Source: Plectonema cf. radiosum LEGE 06105
GTDB taxonomy: Bacteria; Cyanobacteriota; Cyanobacteriia; Cyanobacteriales; Nostocaceae
Reading direction: 5' to 3'
DNA: 42,913 nt
Assembly: GCF_015207665.1 (NCBI RefSeq)
Contig: NZ_JADEWL010000051.1
Span: 1 to 42,913, forward strand
The position numbers and the translations under genes were made by a program. Below are positions 20,601-34,857 of this stretch, piece by piece. The notes under the pieces were generated by a model. It ran no database searches. It had not been told where the DNA came from and was given only the letters and a program-made list of their open reading frames with translations. Positions within the stretch are counted from its first letter, which is position 1. The number at the start of each line of letters is the position of its first letter.

Positions 20601-20633
20601 CCTCACAAGTTCCTCAAACTTAATTGTTACTCT
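20601..20633 (+). promoter_or_regulatory. Conserved stress promoter, copy 1
   Basis: The sequence is CCTCACAAGTTCCTCAAA, nine bases, then TACTCT as -10. It has the same spacing as seven other sites in the window. The predicted start is near 20640, about 105 nt before the tail-anchored protein gene. Confidence 0.75.
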
Positions 20634-20744
20634 AAAAATCATCAGCTTTCATCTGCTTCTGGAAAACTACTTTCACACTAAAACTCACTCAAATTCCATA
20701 TCTAGCTGATAATTTTCACTTAAAAATCTTTTAGGAGCATCAAA

Positions 20745-21038
20745 ATGAAAATACAACCGGAATATTCAGCAGCTGAACTATATAAATTACAAACAATTAA
20801 GAATGAAATTGAAAGTTTACGAAAACAACTAATAGAAATAGACCAAGAAGTTGGAGAAATTAAACAAAATTTTCCTTATTTAGAAAAAGAGCAAGCAAAA
20901 ACTTATTCTCCAGAATTTTCTCATAAAAATAATTTTCACCCTGAATTATTAGAAGAAGAAAATGTCGAAAAACCTTGGGGAAATTATATACTGGTTGTTT
21001 TAATTGTGTTTTATTTTGTGGTAATGAGTTTTCTCTAA
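20745..21038 (+). CDS. Small tail-anchored coiled-coil protein
   Basis: This 97-residue protein is mostly a charged alpha-helical, coiled-coil-like domain (about 8-45; LYKLQTIKNEIESLRKQL, EIDQEVGEIKQN) and ends in one hydrophobic segment (ILVVLIVFYFVVMSFL) at the extreme C-terminus. This topology suggests a cytoplasmic protein anchored to the plasma or thylakoid membrane. The ATG follows a good TTAGGAG site. No family is recognised. A copy of the conserved stress promoter lies upstream, so it probably belongs to the same regulon as the island starting at 24.7 kb. Confidence 0.75.
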   Translation: MKIQPEYSAAELYKLQTIKNEIESLRKQLIEIDQEVGEIKQNFPYLEKEQAKTYSPEFSHKNNFHPELLEEENVEKPWGNYILVVLIVFYFVVMSFL

Positions 21039-21098
21039 TATTTCCTTATCTTCTTAATGATTTTTTTGGTAAAATTTTTTAATCAATAAAATGCGGTC

Positions 21099-22655
21099 AT
21101 GAAAAATTCTTCGACCGATATCATAATTATCGGTGCGGGTATCTCCGGGTTAGCATCAGGTTGCTATGGTCAAATGAATGGTTACAGCACCAAAATATTT
21201 GAGATGCACAATTTACCTGGTGGTTTGTGTACTGCTTGGAACCGTAACGGATATGTTTTTGATGGTTGCATTCATTATTTGTTTGGTTCCGGGAAAGGAC
21301 AACCATTTTATAGTATGTGGGAAGAACTGGGAGCAGTTCAAGGTAGACGATTTGTTAATCACGATGAATTAATACGTGTTAGCGAATCGGGAGGTAAAAC
21401 CCTCATTGTCTACAGTAACCCCGACAAATTGGAATCACATCTCAAACAACTTTCACCTGTTGATAGTCAATTAATTAACACCTTTTGTCAAGGGATTCGG
21501 GTTTTGACAAGCTTCGATTTATCATTACTCCAACAAAAACCCAAAGCTTTGATGGGAATTGCAGATTTGTGGAATTTAGGTCGAAAAATGCTCCCGTTCA
21601 TGGGAACCTTAGCTAAATGGGGTACAATCTCTGCGGAAGATTTTGCTAAACGTTTTCAAGACCCGTTTTTACGTAAAGCAATTCCCCAGATGTTTGCATG
21701 GAAAGATATTCCGGTGATGGTGGGGATGTCCTTATTAGCATATATGTACAATAAAAATGCTGGTTTTCCTCTAGGTGCATCCCTGGAGTTTGCTCGTGCC
21801 ATCGAAAAGCGCTATTTGGAATTAGGTGGTCAAATTTACTATAATTCTCAAGTCGAACGGGTGTTAGTGGAGAACGATACAGCAATTGGTGTGCGACTGT
21901 ATAATAACGAATCATATCAAAGCGATTCCTTCGGAAAGCTTCGCTTACGCGTTATTTCTGCTTGTGATGGACGCGGTACATTGTTTGACTTACTTCGGGG
22001 TGAATACGTAGACGAAGAAATGGAGATGCTTTATGACGGTTATTTCCCTGTACACTCGCAATTACAAGTATCTTTGGGTGTTAACCGCGATTTGTCAAAA
22101 GAACCCCACTGGGTAACTTATTTACTAAATCAACCAGTAGTAATTGCTGGTGAGGAGTGCAGGGAAATTAGTGTAAAACATTACTGCTTTGATCCTTCGT
22201 TAGCTCCACCGGGGAAGTCAGTTTTAATCGTAATGTTGAAAACATCATATGATTATTGGCAGCGAATTTACGGAAGAAAAATTTATGATGCCGAGCAAAT
22301 CCAAGAATCGGGTATTTTAATTGATTTATTAGCAGAGTTTTATCCCGGTATTAAAGCTGATATTGAATATATTGATGTCGCTACACCAATGAGCTACGAA
22401 CGCTATACGGGGAATTGGCAAGGTTCAAGTTGTGGTTGGTTGCTAACTAAACAGACAATGGGAATGATGATTTCTGGTATACCTAAAACTCTACCAAATT
22501 TAAGTAATTTTTACATGGTTGGGCAGTGGGTAGAACCGGGTGGAAGCTTGCCAGTAGTTGCCATGTCAGGACGTAATATTATTCAGCAGATTTGTCACGA
22601 AGATAACAAAGTGTTCCAAGTAAATATTCCTCAATCAGAAGGATTTAAGATATAA
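21099..22655 (+). CDS. FAD-dependent phytoene desaturase-like oxidoreductase
   Basis: The 518-residue protein starts with an FAD-binding Rossmann motif (IIIIGAGISGLASGC; GxGxxG at 12-17), then IFEMHNLPGGLCTAW and an FDGCIHYLFG segment, as in the CrtI/CrtO/CrtH superfamily of carotenoid desaturases, ketolases and isomerases. The C-terminal motif FYMVGQWVEPGGSLPVVAMSGRNI is the second FAD-contacting signature. It lies 61 bp after the tail-anchored protein gene. Many such proteins are not carotenoid enzymes, so the substrate is not assigned. Confidence 0.88.
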   Translation: MKNSSTDIIIIGAGISGLASGCYGQMNGYSTKIFEMHNLPGGLCTAWNRNGYVFDGCIHYLFGSGKGQPFYSMWEELGAVQGRRFVNHDELIRVSESGGKTLIVYSNPDKLESHLKQLSPVDSQLINTFCQGIRVLTSFDLSLLQQKPKALMGIADLWNLGRKMLPFMGTLAKWGTISAEDFAKRFQDPFLRKAIPQMFAWKDIPVMVGMSLLAYMYNKNAGFPLGASLEFARAIEKRYLELGGQIYYNSQVERVLVENDTAIGVRLYNNESYQSDSFGKLRLRVISACDGRGTLFDLLRGEYVDEEMEMLYDGYFPVHSQLQVSLGVNRDLSKEPHWVTYLLNQPVVIAGEECREISVKHYCFDPSLAPPGKSVLIVMLKTSYDYWQRIYGRKIYDAEQIQESGILIDLLAEFYPGIKADIEYIDVATPMSYERYTGNWQGSSCGWLLTKQTMGMMISGIPKTLPNLSNFYMVGQWVEPGGSLPVVAMSGRNIIQQICHEDNKVFQVNIPQSEGFKI

Positions 22656-22665
22656 ACATTGAGAT

Positions 22666-23496
22666 TTAAAAAAATTCTGCTTGTTCAATATTTGCGCGGA
22701 AAAAATCAAAATATTTGTCTGTACCAAACCACCAACCTGCATTTATTTGAGAAGGAATTGTAAATCCTCCAAATGTCCGTTCTTCTAAGACTTCTCCACC
22801 AAAAGGAATATAAGTATAGCTACCATCTTCAGTTTTATCTCCCCAACGCGGTAAAGACATTTTTAACAGCTTACCGTTTGAGTCTATAACAAATGTTAGG
22901 GTAACAGATTCGTCATCAACTTTCATATTTGCTTCAATAGTATTATCATCAATTACCTGCCAACTTACACAATTTTGTGGTAATAAAGCTGAAGGTAGCC
23001 AGAAAGATTCTCCCACGAGTCTACCAATACTAGAACGAGTGATATCTTGATTATGAGCATTTACAACTGGGATAATTCCCCATATAGAAAACCGTATTCG
23101 ACCAAAATTATTAAAATAATAATCACCGCCGATAAATTTAATTAAACCGCTACCAATATTGGCTTGCCAAACAAATCCTTTGAATGCGCGGATAATTTGT
23201 TCGGCTTCCATGGGTAGCCAAGATTTATCTGTTGATAACCTAAAACTACCATTCATTTTCAATTTTACAGATTTAGCTAAGAGAGTTCCTGGTTCAATTG
23301 CGTGGAGAAAGTAACGCTGTACGGGTTGCGGCAATTCTGCAACCATTTCCGTAGTAAAAATATTATTACTCGAACTTGTTTCTAAAGAATGCCAAATTTT
23401 ATTTACTTGCTTACGCTCTGTTAAAAAATTAAGATAAAGAGCGATTAATGAGAAAGCAATTAATGCAGTAATAACTATTAAAATTTTCAAAATCAT
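22666..23496 (-). CDS. DUF6544-like membrane-anchored protein
   Basis: The 276-residue protein has a single N-terminal membrane helix (about 3-24) and a soluble domain with the pattern LPQPVQRYFLHAIEPGTLLAKSVKLKMNGSFR, RAFKGFVWQANIG and a final TIPSQINAGWWFGTDKYFDFFRANI. This fits the DUF6544 (DUF6920) family of uncharacterised proteins. The gene converges with the oxidoreductase gene, 10 bp between stops. No catalytic residues are known for the family. Confidence 0.75.
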   Translation of the reverse strand: MILKILIVITALIAFSLIALYLNFLTERKQVNKIWHSLETSSSNNIFTTEMVAELPQPVQRYFLHAIEPGTLLAKSVKLKMNGSFRLSTDKSWLPMEAEQIIRAFKGFVWQANIGSGLIKFIGGDYYFNNFGRIRFSIWGIIPVVNAHNQDITRSSIGRLVGESFWLPSALLPQNCVSWQVIDDNTIEANMKVDDESVTLTFVIDSNGKLLKMSLPRWGDKTEDGSYTYIPFGGEVLEERTFGGFTIPSQINAGWWFGTDKYFDFFRANIEQAEFF

Positions 23497-23608
23497 TTTG
23501 ATTTTTCACAATATCCTAATGATTAAATTAAACCAAAAATGTGAATAAATCGTGATATTTTTATGGCTTATTGAGACTATTTATCAGATATTTATTAAAA
23601 TGTAGGAA

Positions 23609-24493
23609 TCAATTATCCAGCACTTTTCTATCACGACGATTATCTAATAAGTAAAACAGTAATACACCCAAACCAAAAATATTGGCTACTGACATGATTA
23701 ATCCGCCTAATAATGGAATTAAACCGATTAAACCTAAAATTAGCATTCCGATCAGAAATTTTTGTACGGTCGATTTTTCTGTTTCTTTCATACTTTGTTC
23801 TCCCAGCCACAGCGCTACACCGAGAGTTCCGAGTATCACTGCAACGTAAATCATCAAACCAACTAAGGGTAATAACGGAATTCCAATTAAGGTAATTGTT
23901 AACAAAATTATTGATACAATTACGGCGAGCAAACCACCTAAACCCCATAAACCACTTTGTAGAGGATATCGATTCAGGATAGTTGCTAAACTAGGTAGAA
24001 AATTAGGTCGCCACTTAATAATTAAAACACCGAAAATAGCGCCTAAAATGATTTTAAAGATATGAAAAGCACTACCAAAAAAATATCGGACTACAAAGCT
24101 ATTAATTCCTCTTCTTTTCGCACCATAAACTCCCCATCCGCTAAGTGTACCGGAGGAACCAGCAATATTAGCTCCTTCTTCAGCAATTACTTCACCTCCC
24201 ACTGCATAAGCATCACCATCAACACGGGCATTTCTTTGTAAAATTACATCTCCATCAATGGCGATCGCCGTTTGTCTGACTCTTGCACCTTCTTCAATAG
24301 TTACATCTCCCCCGATAGCATGAGCATTTTCTACAACTGTATTCTTCGTAACCCTGACATCACCGCCTACTCGGATAATATTATCGTTGTTAATATTGAT
24401 GTCAGCCTGTGCCAAAGCCATTGTTGAAAATAAAATAGCACTCAAAATTGAGATTAATACCAAATATAACCAGTTTTTTCTCAAATACTTCAT
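23609..24493 (-). CDS. Bactofilin-like polymer-forming membrane protein
   Basis: The 294-residue protein has an N-terminal signal-like helix (about 8-29), a beta-helix domain (about 30-115) with repeating G-D-V/A units (VGGDVRVTKNTVV, AIGGDVTIEEGARV, AIDGDVILQRNARV, AVGGEVIAEEGANI) as in bactofilins, and four membrane helices (about 135-290). The export signal suggests that the beta-helix faces the periplasm, unlike cytoplasmic bactofilins. Its role is unknown; an envelope scaffolding function is an inference. Confidence 0.75.
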   Translation of the reverse strand: MKYLRKNWLYLVLISILSAILFSTMALAQADININNDNIIRVGGDVRVTKNTVVENAHAIGGDVTIEEGARVRQTAIAIDGDVILQRNARVDGDAYAVGGEVIAEEGANIAGSSGTLSGWGVYGAKRRGINSFVVRYFFGSAFHIFKIILGAIFGVLIIKWRPNFLPSLATILNRYPLQSGLWGLGGLLAVIVSIILLTITLIGIPLLPLVGLMIYVAVILGTLGVALWLGEQSMKETEKSTVQKFLIGMLILGLIGLIPLLGGLIMSVANIFGLGVLLFYLLDNRRDRKVLDN

Positions 24494-24570
24494 GGCTGAT
24501 TCCTGATTTATAGCTGTTTGAATTTCTATAAAGTCTCAAGGGAAGAAGAAGGAAGATGTAAAATTATTAA

Positions 24571-24670
24571 CTCCTCAGCCCTAACTCCTAACCCCTCACC
24601 CCTCACCCCTAACTCCTAACCCCTAACTCCTCACCCCTAACTCCTAACCCCTAACTCCTAACCCCTAACT
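24571..24670. repeat. Heptanucleotide tandem repeat (CTAACTC/CTAACCC)
   Basis: About 14 imperfect copies of the heptamer CTAACTC, CTAACCC or CTCACCC run up to the stop codon of the CBS-CP12 gene. It is the same repeat type as the 24-copy array at 41401. Confidence 0.93.
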
Positions 24671-24672
24671 GA

Positions 24673-25299
24673 TTAACCGCTGCACCAATCATCGTACATC
24701 TGTCCTTGCATTGCTTCTGGAAACTCTTCGCAATATTCTTCAAAAGCTGTTTTAGGAATTTTTTTGGCTTCTTGATGGGCTAACTCAGCTTGTAGTTCAT
24801 CGACAATATCCCAAGCTGCGGCACATTCTTCGGAGCGAGGAGAAGTTTGACTACAAGCAAGGCGGGCTTTTCTAATTGCATCCTGGAGTTCTTGTTCTAA
24901 TACCACTACCCTAGGTAACTCCAGAAATTTACTTTCATTAATGATATCGACTAGCGAAATTATACCCATCAATTCTCCTTGAATCACGGGTGCGCGGAGT
25001 AAGTGATACTGGGCAAACAACCGCGCTACATATTCCACACCCAAATCAGGATTGATTACTATACAGGGTTTACTCATTATTTCATACACCCGTACTTTGC
25101 TAGGGTCTTTACCAAAAGCAATTACTTTATAAACTATATCTGCTTCAGTAATAATGCCGTAGGCATCTTGGTCATGACGACGTTCTACAATTAATGCGTG
25201 CCATCCTCTTGATTGCATTAATTTAACTGCTTCTGCCACAGTTGCGGAACTGCGAATAGTGGCAACATCTGTAGTCATAATGTCTGCTGCTCTCAACAT
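24673..25299 (-). CDS. CBS-CP12 fusion protein
   Basis: This 208-residue protein has two CBS domains (about 1-60 and 68-125; AADIMTTDVATI and VYEIMSKPCIVI) and a C-terminal CP12-like domain (about 140-208) with AAWDIVDELQAE, the CP12 core. CP12 scaffolds GAPDH and phosphoribulokinase to slow the Calvin cycle; CBS domains bind adenine nucleotides. The fusion is known in cyanobacteria. Cysteines are C149/C159 and C190/C206. The second pair is spaced by 15 residues; canonical CP12 has 8, and the canonical position is Gly199. It has a good AGAGGTGG ribosome site. A conserved stress promoter lies 326 bp upstream, separated by a MITE-like element. Confidence 0.93.
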   Translation of the reverse strand: MLRAADIMTTDVATIRSSATVAEAVKLMQSRGWHALIVERRHDQDAYGIITEADIVYKVIAFGKDPSKVRVYEIMSKPCIVINPDLGVEYVARLFAQYHLLRAPVIQGELMGIISLVDIINESKFLELPRVVVLEQELQDAIRKARLACSQTSPRSEECAAAWDIVDELQAELAHQEAKKIPKTAFEEYCEEFPEAMQGQMYDDWCSG

Positions 25300-25337
25300 A
25301 ATCCACCTCTGTGGTATTTTCTTTGTTTGGGGAAGGT

Positions 25338-25577
25338 GAGAAGTCGGGTTTTTATAAAAATTGTCTTGTGTTACAGATATTTAAGTAGTTGTGCAAAATT
25401 AATTAGACATTCCGAAACGTTGAAATCCTTGCGTTGGCTTTAGCTTCGCTATACTGCGTAAACGCCTAGCGTGTCGCTTGGGACTCAGCCTGCCCGGAGG
25501 GCTTATGCTTCGTTCCTCGCTTCGGACAATATATAATTAATTTTGCCTAAGCACTTAAGTCAAAAACCCGACTTCTT
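25338..25577. mobile_element. MITE-like element in the leader of the CBS-CP12 gene
   Basis: The ends are inverted: GAGAAGTCGGGTTTTT on the left and AAAAACCCGACTTCTT on the right. Inside, TTAAGT...GCAAAATTAATTA (25381-25405) is mirrored by 25534-25558 with about 21 of 25 positions matching. The middle holds short structured repeats rich in CGCTTCG-like motifs. There is no transposase frame. It lies wholly between the conserved promoter (25625-25657) and the gene start. Confidence 0.65.
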
Positions 25578-25624
25578 AATCGTTGTTTCATTAAAATTAA
25601 ATCACCTCTGAACCCTCTGTTTTT

Positions 25625-25657
25625 GTTATATAAGAATAATTTGAGGAAGTTGTGAGT
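25625..25657 (-). promoter_or_regulatory. Conserved stress promoter, copy 2 (CBS-CP12)
   Basis: Read leftward the site is ACTCACAACTTCCTCAAA, nine bases, then TATAAC as -10. The predicted start is near 25618, giving a leader of about 320 nt that includes the MITE-like element. Confidence 0.72.
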
Positions 25658-25710
25658 GTTCCGAAAGCAAATTAACAATTAATTGAGCTTTTTTTGGATA
25701 CAGATAACCC

Positions 25711-25800
25711 GCATTTCTCACAAACAAGAAGGAAGTTGGAGTGAGTAGTGGGAACATCAATCCGCCACTCAAAGCTTACCACTTATTTGTGAGAAATCCA
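25711..25800. other. Large inverted-repeat structure
   Basis: Perfect 12-bp arms ATTTCTCACAAA (25713-25724) and TTTGTGAGAAAT (25786-25797) enclose about 60 bases with further short self-complementary segments. It lies between the conserved promoter and the terminator at 25821. It could be a structured RNA or a recombination remnant; no gene is visible. Confidence 0.5.
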
Positions 25801-25820
25801 GGATAACTACATAGCTAAAA

Positions 25821-25857
25821 GCAACCGTGATTCTTCAGGAAAATCACGATTGCTTTT
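25821..25857. terminator. Bidirectional rho-independent terminator
   Basis: GCAACCGTGATT pairs with AATCACGATTGC (one mismatch) around a short loop. Both sides have T runs in the reading direction: CTTTTTG rightward and CTTTTAG leftward. It lies about 100 bp beyond the stop of the peptidoglycan-binding protein gene and would end that leftward transcript. Confidence 0.75.
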
Positions 25858-25958
25858 TGTAATCAAAAGTTTCATATGCTTGAATAACTAACGCCGCTTT
25901 TGTATATGAATCTGTATTATCCAAGCATTGACTTAGAACAGAACTAGACAGGATATTT

Positions 25959-26495
25959 CTAATGATATACTTTACTCAGAGCGTGCCAAGTCCGAGGACC
26001 TACGACTCCATCTTGAGGTAAAGCCATATCCAATTGGAATTTTCTCACTGCTACTTCTGTAATTGAACCAAAATCACCGTCTATATTAAAGCTATAGTAA
26101 CCGTGTAGTGATAAGGTTCTTTGAACCATTCTCACGTACTTACCAGTACTACCACGACTGAGAACTGGGATAGGTGGAACAGGAGGAGCGCCGCTATAAA
26201 GTGCTTTCCAAGTTAATGAACCGACGATACCATCTTCTTCCAAGTAAACACGATGTTGATATGCTTTGACAGCCCATTCAACATATTCGCTGAAGATACC
26301 ATCGATTACATCATAATAAAGTTCCCAGTATTTCAAGAGTTTTTGCAGTTCTTCAACTGCTTCTCCAGTATCTCCCTTTCTTAAAGTTGGTTTACTCAAC
26401 CTCGTTGATGTTAGTTCCGCGATGGAAAATGTAGGAAGATTATTTACATCAATCAGGTGATTGTTTTCCTGTTCATTTCTTTCTTGAAGTTGCAT
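25959..26495 (-). CDS. Peptidoglycan-binding protein with two PG_binding_1 domains
   Basis: The 178-residue product carries two domains of about 60 residues with the family pattern: LRKGDTGEAVEELQKLL...IDGIFSEYVEWAVKAYQ...EDGIVGSLTWKAL (about 43-105) and LSRGSTGKYVRMVQRTL...IDGDFGSITEVAVRKFQ...QDGVVGPRTWHAL (about 112-175). There is no clear signal peptide. PG_binding_1 domains bind peptidoglycan, usually next to a catalytic domain, which is missing here. The ATG at 26495 follows AGAGGAAAG; a TTG at 26513 is the alternative. A conserved stress promoter lies 150 bp upstream. Confidence 0.87.
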   Translation of the reverse strand: MQLQERNEQENNHLIDVNNLPTFSIAELTSTRLSKPTLRKGDTGEAVEELQKLLKYWELYYDVIDGIFSEYVEWAVKAYQHRVYLEEDGIVGSLTWKALYSGAPPVPPIPVLSRGSTGKYVRMVQRTLSLHGYYSFNIDGDFGSITEVAVRKFQLDMALPQDGVVGPRTWHALSKVYH

Positions 26496-26813
26496 AATTT
26501 TCTTTCCTCTCAATGTATTTATTAAGGTTTCTAATACAATGCAGTGGGGTTATAGACGAGTTAATTTCCTACATAAAAATAATTTAATTAACTCATCTTA
26601 GAGAAAACATTGAAACCCTTGAAATCATCTTCTCTATACTTTTAATCTAAACAAAGATTGTGAGGAATCCGTGAGTAAAAAAATATTTAATCACATACCA
26701 GTAAAAACTCTGCGTTTCTCTGCGTATACCTTAGCGTCTCTCTGCGTTAATAGGAATCCTCTAATTTCTAAGCTGCTTTTCTCCCATGACGTTATTGCTT
26801 TAATAATTTAACT
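26496..26813. other. Intergenic region between P-ATPase and peptidoglycan-binding genes
   Basis: It contains the conserved promoter at 26644-26676 and, around 26708-26748, a repeated CTCTGCGT unit (three copies), a dispersed cyanobacterial type. No gene is seen. Confidence 0.6.
26644..26676 (-). promoter_or_regulatory. Conserved stress promoter, copy 3 (peptidoglycan-binding gene)
   Basis: Read leftward the site is ACTCACGGATTCCTCACA, nine bases, then TAGATT as -10, followed by AAAAG. Spacing is identical to the other copies. The predicted start is near 26637, about 140 nt before the gene. Confidence 0.68.
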
Positions 26814-29558
26814 CTAATTAATGGGGTCAAAACGATTTACCACCATAGTTACTAGAATCATTGGCAATCCAACAACCAAGCAAATTAACCATTGATTTAA
26901 ATTCAGTGGTGCAGTAGAAAACAACAGATTCATTAAATTCCATTGACTAAAAATTATTTGCAAAACTATAGTTAAAGCAATTCCAATTCCAATTGCTGAG
27001 GCATCCCTAACTTGATGATTGATACCACGAAGTTTATTGAAAATACCAATTCCTAATTGACTAATACTTAAAAGATAAAAAATTCTTCCTGCTACTAAAG
27101 CTTGAATTGCCATTGTTCGAGCTAAATCTATATTTCCTGTGGTTTGTTGTATCCATTCAAATACGCCGAAAATTAAAATCCAGTTAAAAATAGAAATTGC
27201 CAGGATACGCTTAACTAAACTTGGGGAAAGTAACCGTTCACGTGGGTTCCGGGGTGGTTTTTGCATCACCCCAACAGACTTAGGCTCAAAAGCTAAAGGT
27301 ACAGTCATGGCAATAGAATTAACCATATTTAACCACAAAACTTGTAAAGATAAAATCGGCAATTGTCTAGCAAGCAGTACACTAATCAAAATCGTCATCG
27401 ATTCACCACCATTAACTGGGAGAATAAAGGCGATCGCTTTGAGCAAATTCTGATAAACAGTGCGCCCTTCCTCAACTGCTGCTTCGATGGAGGCAAAATT
27501 ATCATCGGTTAAAATCATGTCAGAGGCTTCTTTTGCCACCTCTGTACCTGCACCGCCCATAGCAATCCCAATATCTGCTTGTTTCAGAGCAGGTGCATCA
27601 TTGACACCATCCCCTGTCATGGCTACAACTTCGCCTTTGGATTGTAATGCTTCCACAAGACGCAGTTTCTGTTCTGGTGCCACACGGGCAAATACAGCCC
27701 CATCTTCTACCGCTGTGGCAAGTTCTGATTCTTCCATTTGAGCAAGTTGGTTTCCTGTGAAAGCCAGAACTTCACGATTGTTATTAAAGCCCATACTTTC
27801 AGCAATGGCTTGGGCAGTTACCGCATGGTCGCCTGTAATCATTTTTACTTGAATACCAGCTTCTTGACAGGCTTTCACAGCTTTGATGGCTTCTGCTCTT
27901 GGCGGATCGATCATCCCCTGCAATCCCAAGAAAATCAAATCATTTTCAATATCTGTATGTTCTAAAGATGTTCCATTTAAGGTTTCTCCATCTGAGAGGG
28001 ATTTTTTGGCAAAGGCTAATACCCGTAAACCAAGATTCGCCATTGCATCAACTTTTTGATGTATTCTTTGTGCATCTACAGGAGCAACATTTCCCTGGGA
28101 ATTCAACATTTGTTGACAACGTTTGAGAATTGCTTCAACGGAACCTTTAACGTAGATAGTTTTAAGTCTTGAGTTGCGATTGTGGGATGAATGCAAAGTC
28201 GCCATGTATTGGAACTCAGATTCAAAGGGGATAACATCCAATCTGGGCATTTCCTGTTCTAAACTATTGCGTTCATATCCAACTTTATTGGCAACTACTA
28301 CCAATGCTCCCTCTGTTGGATCGCCAATCACCTGCCACTGCTGGTCTTTTTTTTCTAAGTGCGAATCATTACATAGCAATCCAGCTTTGATACATTCTGC
28401 AACAACAGATGAATCATCCAAGTTTACTGGTTTTTCATCAAGTAAAATTTCTCCTTGGGGGTCATAACCTACACCAGTAACAGTATAATCTTCACCTCCG
28501 GCATAGATTGCTTGTACTGTCATCTGATTTTCAGTTAGTGTACCAGTTTTATCAGAGCAAATGACTGTAGCACCACCGAGGGTTTCCACTGCTGGTAATT
28601 TGCGAACAATTGCATGACGACGCGCCATACGGGAAACACCGATAGCTAGTGTAACCGTAACTACTGCTGGTAATCCTTCCGGAATCGCACTCACAGCAAA
28701 GGCGATCGCAGCTTCAAACATTTCTGCCCAAGAGTAGCCATATCCCAGCCCCACAGCAAACATCAATGCTGCTATTCCTAAAATTATGTAGAGTAAAGTA
28801 CGGCTAAATTTGTCAAATTTGCGGGTTAATGGAGTTTTTAGAGCGTTTCCTTGCTCCATTAACTGGGAAATGCGTCCTGTCTCCGTAGCATCTCCAATCG
28901 CAACAACAACACCCTTACCAGTGCCAAAAGTTACGAAGCTACCAGCATAAGCCATATTCGTGCGTTCTGCTAAAGCTGCATCTAGATTTAGCTGTTGCGG
29001 ATTTTTTTCAACTGCAACTGATTCACCTGTGAGTGCTGATTCATTAGCTTGTAGATTCCGTGCTTGCACCAAACGCAAATCAGCGGGTACTTTATCTCCA
29101 GAAGCAAGTAGTACTATATCTCCTGGTACTAACTCCGTTGATGGAATCTGCATTTTTTGACCATCGCGAATGATGGTTGCATCGGTTTTTACTGAAGAAG
29201 CTAAAGCTGCGATCGCACTTTCAGCTTTGGATTCTTGCACAAAACCAATAATGGCGTTAATTAAAGTAACACCCCAGATTACCCCAGCGTTCACCCATTG
29301 TCCCAAAAATGCCTTGATTGCACCGGCAATTAATAAGATATATAACAAAGGTTGGTTAAATTGCAAAAGAAATCTTAACAATGGACCTTTTCCAGGTTTG
29401 CTTTTGAGTTCGTTTGCACCAAAATGTTCTCGTTTTTTTGCTGCAACAGAAGAAGTTAAACCAGTTTCTAAATGAGTATCTAAATGTTGAGTTACTTCTT
29501 CTACAGACAGATGATGCCATTGAGTTGATCTAATAATCTCTTGGGATGTTGCTGTCAT
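26814..29558 (-). CDS. Cation-translocating P-type ATPase, Ca2+-ATPase/PacL type
   Basis: At 914 residues it has the full P2-type layout: an N-terminal cation-ATPase domain (about 10-80), the actuator motif ALTGESVAV, the membrane motif AIPEGLPAVVT (helix 4), the phosphorylation site CSDKTGTLTEN (D336), the nucleotide domain with YVKGSVEAILKRC, MITGDHAVTA, the hinge MTGDGVNDAPALKQADIGIAMG (about 646-667), and a C-terminal cation-ATPase membrane domain with LWLNMVNS. PacL-like enzymes export Ca2+, but P2 pumps also move Na+ or Mn2+, so the ion is not certain. It belongs to the stress island. It is full length. Confidence 0.93.
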   Translation of the reverse strand: MTATSQEIIRSTQWHHLSVEEVTQHLDTHLETGLTSSVAAKKREHFGANELKSKPGKGPLLRFLLQFNQPLLYILLIAGAIKAFLGQWVNAGVIWGVTLINAIIGFVQESKAESAIAALASSVKTDATIIRDGQKMQIPSTELVPGDIVLLASGDKVPADLRLVQARNLQANESALTGESVAVEKNPQQLNLDAALAERTNMAYAGSFVTFGTGKGVVVAIGDATETGRISQLMEQGNALKTPLTRKFDKFSRTLLYIILGIAALMFAVGLGYGYSWAEMFEAAIAFAVSAIPEGLPAVVTVTLAIGVSRMARRHAIVRKLPAVETLGGATVICSDKTGTLTENQMTVQAIYAGGEDYTVTGVGYDPQGEILLDEKPVNLDDSSVVAECIKAGLLCNDSHLEKKDQQWQVIGDPTEGALVVVANKVGYERNSLEQEMPRLDVIPFESEFQYMATLHSSHNRNSRLKTIYVKGSVEAILKRCQQMLNSQGNVAPVDAQRIHQKVDAMANLGLRVLAFAKKSLSDGETLNGTSLEHTDIENDLIFLGLQGMIDPPRAEAIKAVKACQEAGIQVKMITGDHAVTAQAIAESMGFNNNREVLAFTGNQLAQMEESELATAVEDGAVFARVAPEQKLRLVEALQSKGEVVAMTGDGVNDAPALKQADIGIAMGGAGTEVAKEASDMILTDDNFASIEAAVEEGRTVYQNLLKAIAFILPVNGGESMTILISVLLARQLPILSLQVLWLNMVNSIAMTVPLAFEPKSVGVMQKPPRNPRERLLSPSLVKRILAISIFNWILIFGVFEWIQQTTGNIDLARTMAIQALVAGRIFYLLSISQLGIGIFNKLRGINHQVRDASAIGIGIALTIVLQIIFSQWNLMNLLFSTAPLNLNQWLICLVVGLPMILVTMVVNRFDPIN

Positions 29559-29931
29559 CTTATTTGCTTTTATCTAATATTTAGCATTGGCAGTGTAAAT
29601 TCAAGACTATTAGCTGTTGTTGTAGTTTTTAGCTAATCAGTGAGCCTTTGCATTTAATATTATAAACAAATGTGATTCAAAAGTGAATTAAAAGGGAATG
29701 GGTAATAGGTAATAGGGAATCTCAATGGAGAGTAATGCGGATTTGACACTCTGCCCTTTAAAAAGAGGCAGATTCTTTAAGACTTGCTTAAAAGGGATAG
29801 TCAAATATCCCACTACACGCTCAAAACAACTGTCATCCAGAAACCTTGTAGAGACGCGAAATTTCGCGTCTCTACATTCTTTTTCGGAGATGTCTACTGT
29901 TCCCCGTTGCCTGTTGACTATTCCCTATTCC
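29559..29931. other. Intergenic region with a perfect palindrome
   Basis: It contains the dispersed palindrome at 29847-29876 and a short GGTAATAGG repeat near 29700. A rightward open frame at 29725 spans the palindrome and is not supported. A weak match to the conserved promoter at 29659-29688, facing the ATPase gene, was not accepted. Confidence 0.55.
29847..29876. repeat. Perfect 30-bp palindrome of the TGTAGAGACG family
   Basis: TGTAGAGACGCGAAA is followed directly by its exact reverse complement. It is the most perfect of the family members in this window. Confidence 0.95.
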
Positions 29932-30105
29932 CTAATCCCTACTCTTGGTGGGATCACCTTCGTAGGGTTGTACTCCCGATTTTGGATAGTCATCATCGCT
30001 GGGGCTAAAAATTCTAGTTACTCCATTGGTAGTCAAATTAATCAATTTTTGGGGAATTTCTACAATTGATTTAATCATTTGCCGAGTTTTAGATGTAATA
30101 GACAT
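29932..30105 (-). CDS. 57-residue conserved-looking small protein
   Basis: Reading leftward from the ATG at 30103-30105 gives a 57-residue protein with an N-terminal helical part (MSITSKTRQMIKSIVEIPQ) and an acidic C-terminus containing RIFSPSDDDYPKSG and VQPYEGDP. A GGAG site lies 8 bp upstream of the ATG. It begins 15 bp after the stop of the GerMN gene on the same strand, which fits a two-gene operon. I recall similar short cyanobacterial proteins ending in the SPSDD.YP..GVQP pattern, but no function is known to me. Confidence 0.7.
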   Translation of the reverse strand: MSITSKTRQMIKSIVEIPQKLINLTTNGVTRIFSPSDDDYPKSGVQPYEGDPTKSRD

Positions 30106-30120
30106 AATAAATTCTCCATT

Positions 30121-30834
30121 TTAATTAATCGAAAAATCTTTGACAAATTGTTGTCTTGTCAACGGTTCTGCTAAAATTATTCCTTCACCACCAAGGGGAT
30201 TTTCTTCATTTAACAATTCACCTTCAACAGAAAGGTAAATATTAGCTTCGGAATCCAGACTTGAAGCAGTGTAAAGTACTTGAGCTACACGATAAATCAT
30301 TGAACTTGAACCACCACCATAGCGAAATTCATCGGATAGGTTGACATGAATTCCTGTTTCGTTAATTTGTAACCCTAATAATTTAGTTCCTGGGGGAATT
30401 GTCGAACTAAATTGATTGTTTTGGTGATTACTCAAAAGGTGATTTAAAGTTTGCTGTAATGCGACTTCCTTTGATGTTCCTTTTCCAATAGTAACTGGTT
30501 GTGGAACTAAGTTTATTTCTTCACCTTCAACTTGTAAGAAATAGGCTTTTGGCTGTAACTCTACAACGAGTGGATTTTGTTTTGCAGTTAATTTTTCTGT
30601 TGGTTTGGGAATTGTAAATGGGATAGTTGGTTTTGGAACTGTATTGTTGTTTTTCGATATGGGTGATTTTTTGACTTGTTCAGATGTGGGAGTGGGAATT
30701 GTTTCTGTAGAAGTAGAATTTCCATTAGAATCTAACCCATTCAACCAAACCACACTCACAACTAAACTTAGTAATAATAGTATGTAAATGATGAAGATAT
30801 TTTGTTGAACGGGACGGGTATTTTGGGTTTTCAT
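30121..30834 (-). CDS. GerMN-domain membrane-anchored protein
   Basis: The 237-residue protein has one N-terminal membrane helix (about 12-32), a Thr/Pro/Ser-rich linker (about 38-85), and a GerMN (sporulation/spore germination-like) domain at about 90-235 (YFLQVEGEEINLVPQPVTI, ALQQTLNHLLS, IPPGTKLLGLQINETGIHVNLSDEFRYGGG, VAQVLYTASSL). Such proteins are common in cyanobacteria, exposed to the periplasm, with unknown role. A good AGGAGAAC site precedes the ATG. It is followed by the 57-residue gene. Confidence 0.88.
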   Translation of the reverse strand: MKTQNTRPVQQNIFIIYILLLLSLVVSVVWLNGLDSNGNSTSTETIPTPTSEQVKKSPISKNNNTVPKPTIPFTIPKPTEKLTAKQNPLVVELQPKAYFLQVEGEEINLVPQPVTIGKGTSKEVALQQTLNHLLSNHQNNQFSSTIPPGTKLLGLQINETGIHVNLSDEFRYGGGSSSMIYRVAQVLYTASSLDSEANIYLSVEGELLNEENPLGGEGIILAEPLTRQQFVKDFSIN

Positions 30835-30935
30835 AATTGTTCTCCTACACTTTTGATGAGTAAATTATTTGATTGAAAATTGACCCCAATACCTCATCAA
30901 AACAGAAAACACCCTGTATATTCTGGTATTTTTAT

Positions 30936-31637
30936 TCAACTACTAGAAGAAGATGCATCAAGTTCCGATTCTGTGCGATAATGCATATTTTCTTCTAGTA
31001 GTTCATCATGCTGAAGTTGTTTTATCATTTCAACTCTTGCTTGTTCTGTAATTCCAGCATGATTAGGATTTTCTAACTCTGAAGCAGTACGAGAGTGCAT
31101 TGTTTCTTGGATATGTTCTTGATGTTGAAGCTGTTGAGCCATTGCTTCTCTTGCTCTCTCTTCCATAGTCAAATCAATTTTGATGACATCATGTTTTTCT
31201 GTATGAGTTTTTGGTAGATTTAAAGTTAAAAGTCCATTGTGAATTTCGGCTTTTACCTGTTTGTGTTCAACACATATAGGTAAGGGTATTATGCGTTGAA
31301 AATGACCATAATTAAATTCAGAACGGTATATTCCTGTTTCATAATGAACTTTTTGTTCTTCATGCTCCCCAGCAATAGAAACCGCATCTTTACTTACATG
31401 AATCTCCAAATCTTTCGGTTCTATACCAGGTACTTGGACTTGTAAAATCAAACATGAATCTGTTTCTTTGATTTCGATCGCTGGTTGCCATGTTGCATTT
31501 TCTACTTGAGGAATAGAATTTAAAGCATGATTATTAGTCTTTTGTGTATTTCCATGAACCAACTCATCAAATAAATGATTCATCTGATGGCGTAGATGAT
31601 TTATTTCTTTGGGTAGATGCCAGTTTTTTTCAGACAT
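30936..31637 (-). CDS. Hsp20/alpha-crystallin chaperone with repeated C-terminal extension
   Basis: This 233-residue protein has an alpha-crystallin domain at about 50-150 (ATWQPAIEIKETDSCLILQVQVPGI, the GIYRSEFNYGHFQRIIPLP segment, and HNGLLTLNLPKT). It then has an unusual C-terminal extension with two 30-residue repeats at 160-189 and 198-227, sharing 17 of 30 positions (AR..M..QLQH.E...E.MH.RT.SEL). Typical Hsp20 proteins are about 140-160 residues, so the repeats are an addition of about 75 residues. Small heat shock proteins bind unfolding proteins and form oligomers. It is divergent from the hydrolase gene and has the conserved stress promoter. Confidence 0.92.
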   Translation of the reverse strand: MSEKNWHLPKEINHLRHQMNHLFDELVHGNTQKTNNHALNSIPQVENATWQPAIEIKETDSCLILQVQVPGIEPKDLEIHVSKDAVSIAGEHEEQKVHYETGIYRSEFNYGHFQRIIPLPICVEHKQVKAEIHNGLLTLNLPKTHTEKHDVIKIDLTMEERAREAMAQQLQHQEHIQETMHSRTASELENPNHAGITEQARVEMIKQLQHDELLEENMHYRTESELDASSSSS

Positions 31638-31703
31638 ATATTTGCTCCCTGCGATCGCGATAACGACTTTGCTTAGCGAGCCAATATTATTGGCTCTATT
31701 TTT

Positions 31704-31736
31704 AAATTAGGAAAATAATTTGAGGAACTTGTGAGG
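31704..31736 (-). promoter_or_regulatory. Conserved stress promoter, copy 4 (hsp20 with repeats)
   Basis: Read leftward the site is CCTCACAAGTTCCTCAAA, nine bases, then TAATTT as -10, followed by AAAAATAG. The predicted start is near 31697, about 60 nt before the gene. It is back to back with copy 5. Confidence 0.78.
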
Positions 31737-31763
31737 ACAAGCCAAACCCACAAAAAACTGCAT

Positions 31764-31796
31764 CTTCACAAAATCTTCAAATTATTTCTCTATAAA
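31764..31796 (+). promoter_or_regulatory. Conserved stress promoter, copy 5 (hydrolase-like gene)
   Basis: The site is CTTCACAAAATCTTCAAA, nine bases, then TATAAA as -10, followed by TAAAAATAG. The predicted start is near 31803, about 60 nt before the gene. With copy 4 it makes a 93-bp divergent promoter pair. Confidence 0.72.
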
Positions 31797-31861
31797 TAAA
31801 AATAGATAAATAAAAATTTTTGAGACTCACATCATAAATGGGGATTTCGGAGGGTAAAACA

Positions 31862-32590
31862 ATGATTAGTAATGTTTTAAGCAATGTTCAAGAACAAATC
31901 GCCTCAATTGCAATCGGTGCTGTAAAATTGCAGGCTGAATTAGTAGTACCATCAAATGCTCGTTCCATTATTATATTTGCACATGGTAACGGTGTTGGAC
32001 GTTACAGTACTCGCAATCGCTACCTTGCTCATGTGTTGCGTCAAACAGCAGGGGTTGGAACTGTATTAGTAGACTTACTAACTCGTGAAGAAGAAGCCAT
32101 CGATTTACGCAGCAAGCATTGCAGTAGTAATGTGCAATTTTTAGCAAAAAGATTAATTGGTGTCACTGATTGGTTGCTTGATAACCCCAGTACCAGTAAT
32201 CTCAAAATCGGCTATTTTGGCGATCGCACTGGTGGAGGAGCAGCATTAATTGCAGCAGCACAACGTCCAATGTCTGTAGGAGCAATAGTTTCCCGCAGTG
32301 GAGAAACCTGTTTAACATCAGATGTTCTCAATTATGTACAAGCTCCAACTTTACTGATTGTGGGTGAAAATGACTTACCATTAATTGCCATGAATCAAGA
32401 TGCCTTCACTCATATTCAAGCATCGAAAAAACAGCTAGAAATTATCCCTGGCGCTTCTCAACAATTTAATGAACCAGGTGCTTTAGATGAAGTTGCTCGT
32501 TTAGCTTGTAGCTGGTTTAGTTATTATCTTTCATTACCTCAACAGCAAGAACTTTATGTTCATGCCGTACCCTGGTATCAAATGTCTTGA
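31862..32590 (+). CDS. Dienelactone-hydrolase-like alpha/beta protein lacking catalytic Ser and His
   Basis: The 242-residue protein follows the alpha/beta-hydrolase layout of the stress-linked dienelactone hydrolase family: IIIFAHGNGVGRYSTRN, LLTREEEAIDLRS, IGYFG.RTGGGAAL, APTLLIVGENDLPLI, EIIPGASQQFNEPGALDEVARLA. The family nucleophile elbow normally reads FGASTGAAAAL and the histidine motif GATHLFEEPG. Here the Ser position is Arg122 and the His position is Gln200; only the acid D171 is kept. The ATG at 31862 is preferred because GGAGGG lies 8 bp upstream; a start at 31838 is possible. It may be a pseudoenzyme. It has the conserved stress promoter. Confidence 0.85.
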   Translation: MISNVLSNVQEQIASIAIGAVKLQAELVVPSNARSIIIFAHGNGVGRYSTRNRYLAHVLRQTAGVGTVLVDLLTREEEAIDLRSKHCSSNVQFLAKRLIGVTDWLLDNPSTSNLKIGYFGDRTGGGAALIAAAQRPMSVGAIVSRSGETCLTSDVLNYVQAPTLLIVGENDLPLIAMNQDAFTHIQASKKQLEIIPGASQQFNEPGALDEVARLACSWFSYYLSLPQQQELYVHAVPWYQMS

Positions 32591-32637
32591 GAAGTCTGGT
32601 TTTTAAGAGGATTATCTGGTTTTGAGAGATTTATCCT

Positions 32638-32689
32638 AAAAACCCGACTTCTATGATTATCCTGATGGGGGGTAAGAAGTCGGGTTTTT
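32638..32689. terminator. Bidirectional hairpin terminator after the hydrolase-like gene
   Basis: Perfect 15-bp arms AAAAACCCGACTTCT and AGAAGTCGGGTTTTT enclose a 22-base loop, with a T5 end. It is preceded and followed by degenerate copies of the same arm (32590, 32714). The same arm sequence occurs at the ends of the MITE-like element at 25338-25577 and after the CFA-like gene at 36749. Confidence 0.85.
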
Positions 32690-32750
32690 ACTGAGATTAT
32701 CAGGGTGTTAGAAAGATTTATCTTAAAAAGCCGACTTCTATGATTAGTTT

Positions 32751-32783
32751 CCTCACAACTTCCTCAAATTTTTTTTCTACTCT
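32751..32783 (+). promoter_or_regulatory. Conserved stress promoter, copy 6 (second hsp20)
   Basis: The site is CCTCACAACTTCCTCAAA, nine bases, then TACTCT as -10 followed by TAAAG. The predicted start is near 32790, about 47 nt before the gene. Confidence 0.78.
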
Positions 32784-32836
32784 TAAAGTGAAAGATTTCA
32801 AAACCTTGAAATAAGAAATCCGGAGGAGGCAAAGTT

Positions 32837-33316
32837 ATGCCAATTACTCGTTGGGAACCTTTTCAAGAAATAGAAACTTGGCAACCTTTTTCTAGAGAGC
32901 CAATGTGGACTATAGATCAAATGCAACGGCAAATGAATCGCTTGATGGAACGGTTAATACCAAGTGGTAACGGAGGTTCTGCACTCAATTATATACCTTC
33001 GGCAGAAATGGAAGAAACTGCTGAGGACATTCGGCTCAAATTAGAAATTCCAGGAATGGAAGCTAAAGATTTGAGTGTTGAAGTCACAGACAGCTCTGTT
33101 TCTATTAGCGGAGAACGCAAATCGGAAACAAAGACAGAAGAAAAAGGTATGATACGCTCGGAATTCCACTACGGTAGATTTGAGCGAAATATTCCTTTAC
33201 CATCTCACGTTCAAAATGACAAAGTGCAAGCAGAATACAAAAATGGTATTCTTAGCCTTAAGTTACCCAAACTTGAAGGTGAGAAACATAAAACCGTGAA
33301 AATCGATGTCAAATAA
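32837..33316 (+). CDS. Hsp20/alpha-crystallin small heat shock protein
   Basis: At 159 residues this is a standard-length small heat shock protein: N-terminal region with DQMQRQMNRLMERL, an alpha-crystallin domain (about 50-150; LNYIPSAEMEETAEDIRLKLEIPGM, SVSISGERKSE, MIRSEFHYGRFERNIPLP, YKNGILSLKLPK) and a short C-terminal tail. It binds unfolding proteins. The ATG has a strong GGAGGAGG site. It is a paralog of the long Hsp20 at 30936-31637 and shares its promoter signature. Confidence 0.95.
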   Translation: MPITRWEPFQEIETWQPFSREPMWTIDQMQRQMNRLMERLIPSGNGGSALNYIPSAEMEETAEDIRLKLEIPGMEAKDLSVEVTDSSVSISGERKSETKTEEKGMIRSEFHYGRFERNIPLPSHVQNDKVQAEYKNGILSLKLPKLEGEKHKTVKIDVK

Positions 33317-33348
33317 ATAATTGTTAATTGTTAACACATCATAATAAT

Positions 33349-33378
33349 GTAGAGACGTTGCACTGCAACGTCTTTTAT
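33349..33378. repeat. Dispersed palindrome (TGTAGAGACG family) after hsp20
   Basis: GAGACGTTGCA and TGCAACGTCT form the stem with a 1-base centre. It begins 32 bp after the hsp20 stop and ends in TTTTA, so it may work as a 3' hairpin. Confidence 0.88.
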
Positions 33379-33428
33379 ATATTTAAATTCTTACCAAGAA
33401 TTTGATTAAATATATTCAATCAGATAAA

Positions 33429-33911
33429 TCAAAGTTTATATCCAATCTGACGTAAAAAATCTTTGCGTTCTATCATATCTTGAGAAGATTCTACACCTTT
33501 GGGAGAAAATCCATCAACAATGCCAATAAGACCTCTCCCTTGATCAGTTTCTACAACAATTACCTCTACCGGATTAGCAGTAGCACAGTAAATAGTACAA
33601 ACTTCAGGAACTTGTCTAATAGTATTGAGAAAGTTCATCGGATAAGCATTTTTAAGTAAAATAATAAAGCAGTGTCCGCAAGCTACCGCTAAAGCATTTT
33701 TCTGAGCAACTGTTTGTAAAAATTTGTCATTTCCCGACAGCCGAACCAAGCAATCTCCTGATGCTTCACAAAAAGCTAATCCAAATTTAACTTGTGTTAC
33801 TTGTTGAATCATCACCTCATGTAAATCTTCAACTGTTTTGATGAAATGACTTTGACCAATGATAATGTTACAATCTTCCGGAATTTCTACTGCAACTATT
33901 TGGATTTTCAT
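33429..33911 (-). CDS. Adenosine-specific kinase family protein
   Basis: The 160-residue sequence follows the adenosine-specific kinase family (PF04008 type): IIIGQSHFIKTVEDLHEVMI, FGLAFCEASGDCLVRLSGND, ACGHCFIILLKNAYPMNFLN, VPEVCTIYCATANPVEVIVVE and QGRGLIGIVDGFSPKGVE. The archaeal member was assigned as binding or acting on adenosine; the role in bacteria is unclear. It is divergent from the decayed ATPase alpha gene, and has its own copy of the conserved stress promoter 73 bp upstream. The length is typical. Confidence 0.9.
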   Translation of the reverse strand: MKIQIVAVEIPEDCNIIIGQSHFIKTVEDLHEVMIQQVTQVKFGLAFCEASGDCLVRLSGNDKFLQTVAQKNALAVACGHCFIILLKNAYPMNFLNTIRQVPEVCTIYCATANPVEVIVVETDQGRGLIGIVDGFSPKGVESSQDMIERKDFLRQIGYKL

Positions 33912-33983
33912 AATCTATCTAAATCTCAATTAAGTAAAAAACATTGTTAAGTTTTTGATTTTCCGTTAACATAATCTTTCTTT

Positions 33984-34016
33984 ATAGTAAAAAAACATTA
34001 TGGGGAAATTGTGAAG
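33984..34016 (-). promoter_or_regulatory. Conserved stress promoter, copy 7 (adenosine-specific kinase)
   Basis: Read leftward the site is CTTCACAATTTCCCCATA, nine bases, then TACTAT as -10, followed by AAAG. The predicted start is near 33977, about 65 nt before the gene. Confidence 0.65.
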
Positions 34017-34043
34017 GTGTTATCTCCGGTATCAAATGGAAAC

Positions 34044-34473
34044 GAGAGTAGAAAAGGCACTTTGACTAGAATTGTGGATGTGTCATGGGTAATGCTTTAG
34101 AAAAAGTATTGAAATTACCAAACATCGTTCTTTAGAACGAAAAGCCCCACTAATTATCAACCGCGCTCCAGTCAAGGAACCTTTACAAACTGGTTTAAAG
34201 GATGCCCTAATTCCTATGGGTAAAGAACAGTGAGAGTTGATTGTGAGATACAAGTTAGCGGGGAAAACGGCGATTCCCACTAACTTTATTTCTATTACAG
34301 ACGGTCAAATATATCTGTCTCCAGACTTATTTCAAAAAGCTATATTTACCGCTATAGATGTAGGTAAGTCAGCGGATAAAAGTATTGAGACGGGTAAAAA
34401 ATTAACAGACGAAGAATATCAAGCAATCTTAAAAATAGCTAGACAAATAATTCAGGAGTACAATTTGCCATGA
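34044..34473 (+). pseudogene. Decayed F1-ATPase alpha subunit gene, N-ATPase-like
   Basis: Rightward frames read as fragments of an ATP synthase alpha subunit: RIVDV (34068-34082), GNAL (34088-34099), then after a frameshift IEITKHRSLERKAPLIINRAPV, KEPLQTGLKDALIPMGKEQ, an in-frame TGA at 34231 where the family has Arg (GQRELI; one base from CGA), then ELIV...[27 protein letters not shown] and IDVGKS. Compared with the intact subunit, the Walker A motif GDRQTGKT is damaged and about 170 residues between GKTAI and PTN are deleted. The IDVGKS end resembles alpha subunits of the second, N-type F1Fo-ATPase. The tail after 34370 is not recognised. Confidence 0.85.
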
Positions 34474-34730
34474 ATCTTCCTCTTTTAAATAATCTTTCTT
34501 TTTTAAAGAATTTTGCTTTTTTCAATAATTCAAATACACCGTATTGGATCAAAATTCAAACGGATCAACCCAAATGTATTTATTACTTCGGTCCTTTTGA
34601 TAATCCTCAAGAAGCTAAACTTAATCAAGATGGTTATGTGGAAGATTTGATTGAGGAAAAAGCTTTGGGAATCTCGGCTTCTGTTAAGAAGTGTAAACCA
34701 AAAACTTTGACTATCTACGAGGAAGAATGA
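34470..34730 (+). CDS. DUF1816 domain protein
   Basis: The 86-residue protein shows the DUF1816 pattern of cyanobacteria: [44 protein letters not shown]...[14 protein letters not shown]. The function is not known. Its ATG overlaps the TGA of the preceding frame (34470-34473), so it may have been coupled to whatever gene once ended there. It has no recognisable own promoter nearby, so expression may depend on the remains of the decayed upstream unit. Confidence 0.85.
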
Positions 34731-34748
34731 TTTAATAACGGTTAATAA

Positions 34749-34780
34749 TGTAGAGACGTAGCAATACGCCCCGTCTCTTA
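34749..34780. repeat. Dispersed palindrome (TGTAGAGACG family) after DUF1816 gene
   Basis: TGTAGAGACG and CGTCTCTTA form the outer arms with a damaged centre. It begins 19 bp after the gene stop, like the copies behind gatB and hsp20. Confidence 0.8.
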
Positions 34781-34824
34781 AAGCTATTTATTGAAAAAAT
34801 GATTTTTTGAATATTTTTAGTTTT

Positions 34825-34857
34825 CCTCACAAGTTTCTCACATTTTTGGGGTAATTT
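34825..34857 (+). promoter_or_regulatory. Conserved stress promoter, copy 8 (orphan)
   Basis: The site is CCTCACAAGTTTCTCACA, nine bases, then TAATTT as -10. Spacing is identical to the other copies, but no convincing gene follows for more than 700 bp. Confidence 0.7.

Follow-up and report, generated by a model that had tools for sequence, protein, structure and literature searches.

A direct-repeat promoter element of Nostocaceae, probably linked to anoxia, and its candidate activator among OmpR/PhoB-type response regulators

What are eight copies of one 33-bp element doing within 43 kb of a cyanobacterial genome, and which protein reads them? The question is raised by contig NZ_JADEWL010000051.1 of Plectonema cf. 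radiosum LEGE 06105, which was analysed over its whole 42,913 nucleotides (here called the window). Each copy consists of a direct-repeat box followed by a −10 hexamer, and a first-pass annotation of the DNA had taken the set for the promoters of a stress regulon under class II activation by a regulator of the OmpR/PhoB type. Our answer, which we hold to be likely, is that the sites serve a single regulon as promoters that need an activator. Such a regulator would bind them, and the regulon would be on in anoxic or dark fermenting cells.

The coordinates and strands first given for the eight sites are exact (8/8, sequence read at each position; Table 1), and each site contains two CTCA-type half-sites 11 bp apart. 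The fixed spacing between box and −10 was borne out in that TA occupies box positions 28–29 in all eight, whereas the strict form TAnnnT, which had been ascribed to every site, is present in only six, the other two reading TATAAC and TATAAA. The seven genes named earlier do follow their sites, with 41–325 bp between −10 and start codon as calculated from the coordinates. The eighth site (34825), which had been left without a gene, probably has one too: a CMAS-type methyltransferase 756 bp away; in both of its homologues with upstream sequence a site precedes the gene as well, by 265 and 555 bp.

The promoter signature is real, shared by one regulon and wider than the window, as judged from the pattern, its controls, a model scan of the genome and conservation. 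A scan of the 7.6-Mb genome with the exact 33-bp pattern gives five matches, against none with the pattern read backwards; among 41 genomes (P. cf. radiosum LEGE 06105 and 40 relatives; 25 same-family and 16 other-family genomes) it is present in 20, again with 0 backward matches. A matrix and a model were then built and the genome and its relatives scanned, with sites far above controls: by matrix the window sites, which are themselves among the training sites, score 31.6–55.3, and in 772 kb of reversed-sequence control nothing exceeds 8. Loose pattern matching with three mismatches was dropped, since 244 matches in the genome versus 177 backwards mean that such matches are mostly due to chance. 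The spacing was examined in 76 box matches with at most one mismatch, outside the pattern used for fetching loci; TA stands at offset 28 in 72 of them and TAnnnT there in 44, the next best offset having TA in 23. Conservation in a profile built from 87 distinct exact sites goes beyond the pattern (T before the box, AA at 7–8, G/C at 9, TT at 19–20) and includes, downstream of the −10, an A-rich AAA and then a TAGAG-like stretch. Finally, a 46-position model (R1), trained on 70 rows of which six are from the Plectonema genome and four of these from the window, finds 16 sites with E < 1e-3 in the 7.6 Mb, namely eight in the window, two on contig C186 and three each on C88 and C138; two further sites, one of them at window position 23525, have E < 0.1, beyond which there is a continuous tail.

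Which protein may read the box is suggested by the genes that adjoin it. Among the 16 Trans_reg_C proteins encoded by Plectonema, only two lie within 1.5 kb of strong sites (scores 44.9 and 48.0); for the other 14 the score is 17.6 at most. The regulator on C186 has 236 amino acids and consists of a receiver and a winged helix-turn-helix (wHTH) domain (PF00072 and PF00486 above cut-off). Its locus shows a site, a small CPCC gene and the regulator gene in tandem, with a divergent universal stress gene that has its own site, and the neighbourhood also holds a flavodiiron-type gene and a CBS-PAS hybrid kinase. The regulator on C88 (L060:11502-15566) is much longer (1354 amino acids; receiver, wHTH, Hpt, two receivers, PAS, GAF, PAS, kinase), again with PF00072 and PF00486 above cut-off. 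The small CPCC protein encoded between site and regulator (L062:2850-3089) is zinc-ribbon-like and has no match in Pfam or NCBIfam. The closest solved chains to the regulator include DrrD, MtrA and RpaA, and its closest named relatives are records from Richelia, Rivularia and Calothrix.

Box and regulator also go together across genomes. In 23 of the 25 same-family genomes the best model E is 1.5e-7 or lower (remaining two: 0.043 and 0.013); in the 16 other-family genomes the best E values are 1.7e-5, 3.2e-5 and 5.6e-5, then at least 1.5e-3, and four genomes are without any site. Regulator homologues of at least 61% identity are found in the same 23 family genomes that have strong sites; one of the remaining two has no match at the cut-off and the other one of 52%, and outside the family the best is 60%. 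At the cut-offs used, presence of the regulator and presence of the box thus agree in 41/41 genomes. In a tree from which sequences below 35% identity and one duplicate were excluded, 27 regulator sequences form a single clade (support 0.995), and 22 of these have a strong site (>25) within 6 kb, or within the flank available where this was shorter. Among 35 named cyanobacterial loci (five of which, L245–L249, match genomes also used for the matrix; the non-cyanobacterial L280–L282 were left out) 21 have a site >25 within 8 kb, no reversed control exceeding 18 in 566 kb. Sites are also found around the regulator gene on plasmids outside the Nostocales, namely in Chroococcidiopsis (37.3), Kovacikia (42.5 and 37.3) and Leptolyngbya boryana (27.5). 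We consider a clade of OmpR/PhoB-type response regulators, paralogous to the far-red regulator RfpB, to be the likely activator, an assignment that is strong but indirect. The class II activation proposed by the first-pass annotation gains indirect support in the same way, one regulator clade co-occurring with the box and often adjoining it.

Under which conditions would such a regulon be on? Sorted by the gene that comes next, 176 distinct sites give 76 groups (for 12 of the sites no gene lies within 600 bp), the largest being those of Hsp20 (12), universal stress proteins (12), the CPCC protein (11, third largest) and phosphoenolpyruvate (PEP) synthase (9). Group representatives above the curated cut-offs are PEP synthase, pyruvate:ferredoxin oxidoreductase (PFOR), pyruvate formate-lyase (PFL) activase, HoxE, HypA, phosphoketolase, psbA and DevC; hydrogenase-subunit-like and GH65-like representatives are below their own cut-offs, and a hibernation-factor domain is present behind the box. 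The psbA product of one relative (G022) differs from standard D1 at positions 189, 333, 342 and 344, which we take to be manganese ligands. D1 forms that do not evolve oxygen are described as used in dark, anoxic or nitrogen-fixing conditions (PMC5061849). PFL-activase promoters are absent from the training loci of the matrix. In 60 family genomes nine PFL activase genes are above cut-off, and eight of them have the box on the same strand 93–142 bp upstream, as counted to the start of the profile match and not to the start codon; the ninth (G073) has only a weak site (20.5), and a strong site (39.5) there precedes pflB, which is followed by phosphofructokinase, activase and adhE. Weak radical-SAM matches have the box in 4/21. 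As a separate observation, a PFOR gene broken by many stops (G021:C1:210399-213848) stands behind a well-kept box at 210254. In another relative (L077) the site is followed by an open frame of 2514 amino acids.

The gene content in relatives (PFL activase, PFOR, hydrogenase, PEP synthase and others) narrows the first name of the set, "stress regulon", to anoxia or fermentation plus dormancy: "regulon" stands and "stress" is too general. Loss of oxygen is probably what makes the box regulon turn on its genes for fermentation and dormancy. In Plectonema the box genes are mainly those for Hsp20, universal stress, CBS-CP12, adenosine kinase, peptidoglycan-binding and sugar-storage-like proteins; it is mainly the protective half that carries the box there, the fermentative half being seen in relatives.

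The mechanism can be pictured as follows. The regulator (236 amino acids on C186; the second copy, with 1354 amino acids, on C88, fused to Hpt, receivers and its own kinase) would bind head-to-tail to the two half-sites, which lie 11 bp or about one helix turn apart; indeed, a tandem direct repeat with an 11-bp period fits what is expected of the OmpR/PhoB type. The box would replace the −35 element and end 9 bp before a −10 of the sigma-70 type, so that the bound protein would contact RNA polymerase there, which is class II activation; the arrangement of this class (box in the −35 place, fixed distance, −10) is what the spacing counts given above reveal, with TA at one offset in 72/76. With an assumed start of transcription some 7 nt downstream of the −10, the box would span roughly −40 to −23, which fits class II activation. 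In cells that are anoxic or ferment in the dark the regulon would be on, and it would comprise a fermentation half (PFL, PFOR, AdhE, hydrogenase, phosphoketolase and PEP synthase) and a protection and dormancy half (Hsp20, universal stress proteins, CBS-CP12, adenosine kinase and a ribosome hibernation factor). The sequences themselves bear out the sites, their geometry and conservation, the genes around them and the link with one regulator clade in occurrence and position. Binding, activation, expression, oxygen or redox as the signal and the acting kinase we infer; for the dimer, phosphorylation, polymerase contact and signal this is done from the protein family.

It should be noted, however, that several findings weigh against this reading, with respect both to the regulator and to the signal. 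Five of the 27 clade members (L147, L152, L153, L154 and one L155 gene) and 14 of the 35 named loci are without a strong site nearby, and Acaryochloris has only weak box variants (23.6 at most). Conversely, 8 of 36 other family regulators also have a site >25 within 6 kb, although three of these are far-red boxes, one is a TCCAC box and, of the four ordinary ones, at least two are in stretches fetched for sites. Moreover, the co-occurrence follows ancestry, so that 23 genomes are not 23 independent events. The five clade members would suit a box that is read by another transcription factor, with the response-regulator clade as a merely frequent member of the regulon, and a target gene would likewise co-occur with the box. 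We regard this as quite unlikely, because presence agrees in every genome compared, because tandem 11-bp repeats suit the OmpR/PhoB-type family, and because an RfpB paralogue adjoins the same geometry with a different half-site. Very unlikely, too, is the view that the element is the promoter of an alternative sigma factor rather than an activator site. It would account for the rigid distance from box to −10, but this −10 is an ordinary TAnnnT, the box lies nearer to it than the normal spacer of 16–18 bp between −35 and −10 permits, and the box is a direct repeat that tracks a DNA-binding response regulator. A mobile or duplicated repeat whose copies have no regulatory function, as the clustering of the sites on few contigs might suggest, has a negligible probability: conservation fades beyond the promoter, orientation and distance are kept at hsp20 homologues of only 45–55% protein identity, and the prediction for PFL activase was borne out.

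With respect to the signal, the box is found at only 7 of the 30 PFOR loci that were fetched and checked (more matches are listed), one of the seven being a training locus, and the full-length PFOR gene of Plectonema (C167) is on a contig without a listed site in the model scan. In addition, an anoxic atmosphere in the light is reported to have hardly altered the transcriptome of another member of the Nostocales, Chlorogloeopsis fritschii PCC 6912 (PMC10830646). This speaks against anoxia as a simple trigger, unless oxygen produced in the light or lack of the regulator is the reason. The main rival therefore keeps the same box and regulator clade and has them answer to a broader signal (dormancy, energy or redox shortage, desiccation or darkness), anoxia being one trigger among several. 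The mainly protective box genes of Plectonema and the lack of a site at its own PFOR speak for such a signal, which we nevertheless consider fairly unlikely: eight of nine genes for PFL activase, which belongs to anaerobic fermentation, have the box, and hydrogenase, PFOR and AdhE genes are found behind sites. Anoxia or dark fermentation appears to be the best single inducing condition.

For the promoters of the window (Table 1) the counts in relatives are inflated, most loci having been fetched for bearing sites or the regulator. With this in mind, the site is found at 16/17 homologues of the hsp20 gene at 30936 and at 14/15 of that at 32837, the two sets overlapping; at 4/7 homologues of the adenosine kinase, 3/7 of the hydrolase and 3/11 of CBS-CP12; and at 2/2 each for the peptidoglycan-binding protein, the tail-anchored protein and the methyltransferase. 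Of the DUF6544 homologues one in four has a strong site, and the closest (L070) scores 15.5. For the cation ATPase, GerMN, DUF1816 and adhesin-like genes, none of which has its own strong site in Plectonema, a homologue in another genus does have one. The hybrid kinase of the window (37164-39884) was rejected as a box gene, a site being found at 0/26 homologues.

Table 1. Sites of the 33-bp element in the window and the genes that follow them
Feature	Position	Strand	Model E	Gene context
Box + −10 TACTCT	20601..20633	+	3.2e-7	precedes 97-aa open frame 20745-21038 and carotenoid-isomerase/CrtI-like FAD protein 21099-22655
Box + −10 TATAAC	25625..25657	−	4.1e-7	325 bp upstream of CBS-CP12 24673-25299
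Box + −10 TAGATT	26644..26676	−	5.2e-5 (training row)	130 bp upstream of peptidoglycan-binding protein 25959-26513
Box + −10 TAATTT	31704..31736	−	3.2e-11	66 bp upstream of hsp20 30936-31637
Box + −10 TATAAA	31764..31796	+	4.4e-4 (training row)	41 bp upstream of hydrolase-like protein 31838-32590
Box + −10 TACTCT	32751..32783	+	5.3e-10 (training row)	53 bp upstream of hsp20 32837-33316
Box + −10 TACTAT	33984..34016	−	4.0e-5 (training row)	72 bp upstream of adenosine-specific kinase 33429-33911
Box + −10 TAATTT	34825..34857	+	3.2e-7	756 bp upstream of CMAS-type methyltransferase 35614-36747
Weak ninth candidate (2 mismatches)	23525..23557	−	0.023	28 bp upstream of DUF6544/DUF6920 gene 22666-23496

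Elsewhere in the Plectonema genome two sites stand apart. The strong site C138:12895-12927 (−; E 1.2e-6) is without an evident downstream gene and possibly serves a long leader or a small RNA; a dedicated pattern found no relatives of it. The site C88:28662 (−) is likewise without a gene. The matching site in a relative (G006) drives a small CPCC gene about 240 bp on, so that the gene may be missing in Plectonema; a second relative compared (L085) has an unrelated stretch at that place. Site-rich contigs are also seen in other genomes (G003:C231, G007:C80 and G019:C53), the model matching 53 times in G003 and 53 times in G007 (E up to 0.1); for a plasmid nature of such contigs the one stretch examined (L078) gave no support. 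In Acaryochloris the regulator gene is surrounded by ppsA, universal stress, CBS, hoxE, hoxU and hydrogenase genes, and on plasmid pMB02 of Acaryochloris 'Moss Beach' (L364) the regulator is in an island with genes for PEP synthase, F-type ATPase subunits, universal stress and CBS proteins and hydrogenase.

The geometry of the element recurs near paralogues of the regulator. A far-red-type cluster on C94 contains the RfpB-like gene of Plectonema, a phytochrome kinase and variants of psbA. Such clusters in three genomes of the genus each show three perfect TTCAT-n6-TTCA repeats that are followed by TAnnnT at the same offset, and in total TAnnnT is at that offset in 9 of 10 perfect TTCAT repeats; with one mismatch allowed, a −10 is found at 9 of 64 repeats versus 2 of 59 in the control. 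The far-red clusters L063 (G000:C94), L174, L175 and L366 contain CTTCATnnGTTnTTCA direct repeats with the same −10 offset as the anoxia-candidate box, and the CTTCATnnGTTnTTCA repeat is a candidate for the RfpB site. Three TTCAT sites are also present on a Fischerella plasmid for which a far-red gene set is annotated; psbA-4 follows one of them after 136 bp, and psaB follows another after 72 bp. An unsupervised search with period 11 around other paralogues yielded TCCAC six times and TTCAC twice, and neither in the control, the totals over all 5-mers being 25 versus 18 in the control. Repeats with the same geometry stand near other RfpB-like genes: TCCAC-n6-TCCAC at L155, L176, L177 and L291, and TTCAC-n6-TTCAC at L181 and L182. 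The helix reads VRT(H/Q)IKGLR in the regulator clade versus VTAHIKGLR in the far-red proteins. A half-site code among RfpB-like regulators is suggestive, albeit unproven. A wider proposal, for which confidence and doubt are evenly balanced, would be that the regulator acts as the main switch for anoxia in Nostocaceae and represents one branch within an RfpB-like family with shared geometry, in which the half-site would carry the code: CCTCA for anoxia, TTCAT for far-red light, and TCCAC or TTCAC for further signals.

How fermentation, hydrogenase and survival genes are induced by anoxia in filamentous cyanobacteria is poorly understood, and in the open-licence literature searched no DNA element or activator for them was found; searches there for the box, for an anaerobic regulon or regulator and for a motif of RfpB or far-red light photoacclimation (FaRLiP) returned no description of the box. 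What is supplied here is a 33-bp element together with the genes behind it, a clade of candidate activators and a related far-red box, by which the assignment of the regulator becomes testable and an anoxia-inducible promoter for cyanobacterial work is suggested.

Among known systems, the PhoB/OmpR-type regulons, including those of RpaA, RpaB and SphR, likewise have a receiver-wHTH protein and a tandem repeat near −35, but their half-sites, as far as is known, differ from the CCTCA box. The DosR dormancy regulon of mycobacteria, which responds to hypoxia, comprises genes of similar kinds (Hsp20, universal stress, CBS and cation ATPase); DosR is, however, a NarL-type regulator with an inverted-repeat box, whereas a Trans_reg_C protein and a direct repeat are found here. 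In Synechocystis hox is controlled under microoxic conditions by cyAbrB2 (PMC11368403), which is similar in that hydrogenase is controlled where there is not much oxygen and different in that cyAbrB2 is a nucleoid-associated protein. RfpB of FaRLiP is a paralogous receiver plus Trans_reg_C protein (57–58% identity), with Hpt and extra receivers in one form, and far-red clusters share the 11-bp direct repeat with the same −10 offset. It differs in that the half-site in far-red clusters is TTCAT rather than CCTCA, in that the far-red RfpB-like sequences are outside the 27-member clade of the tree, and in that a PHY region is present in the C94 kinase and none is reported, at the threshold used, in the C88 protein or in the kinase neighbouring the C186 regulator.

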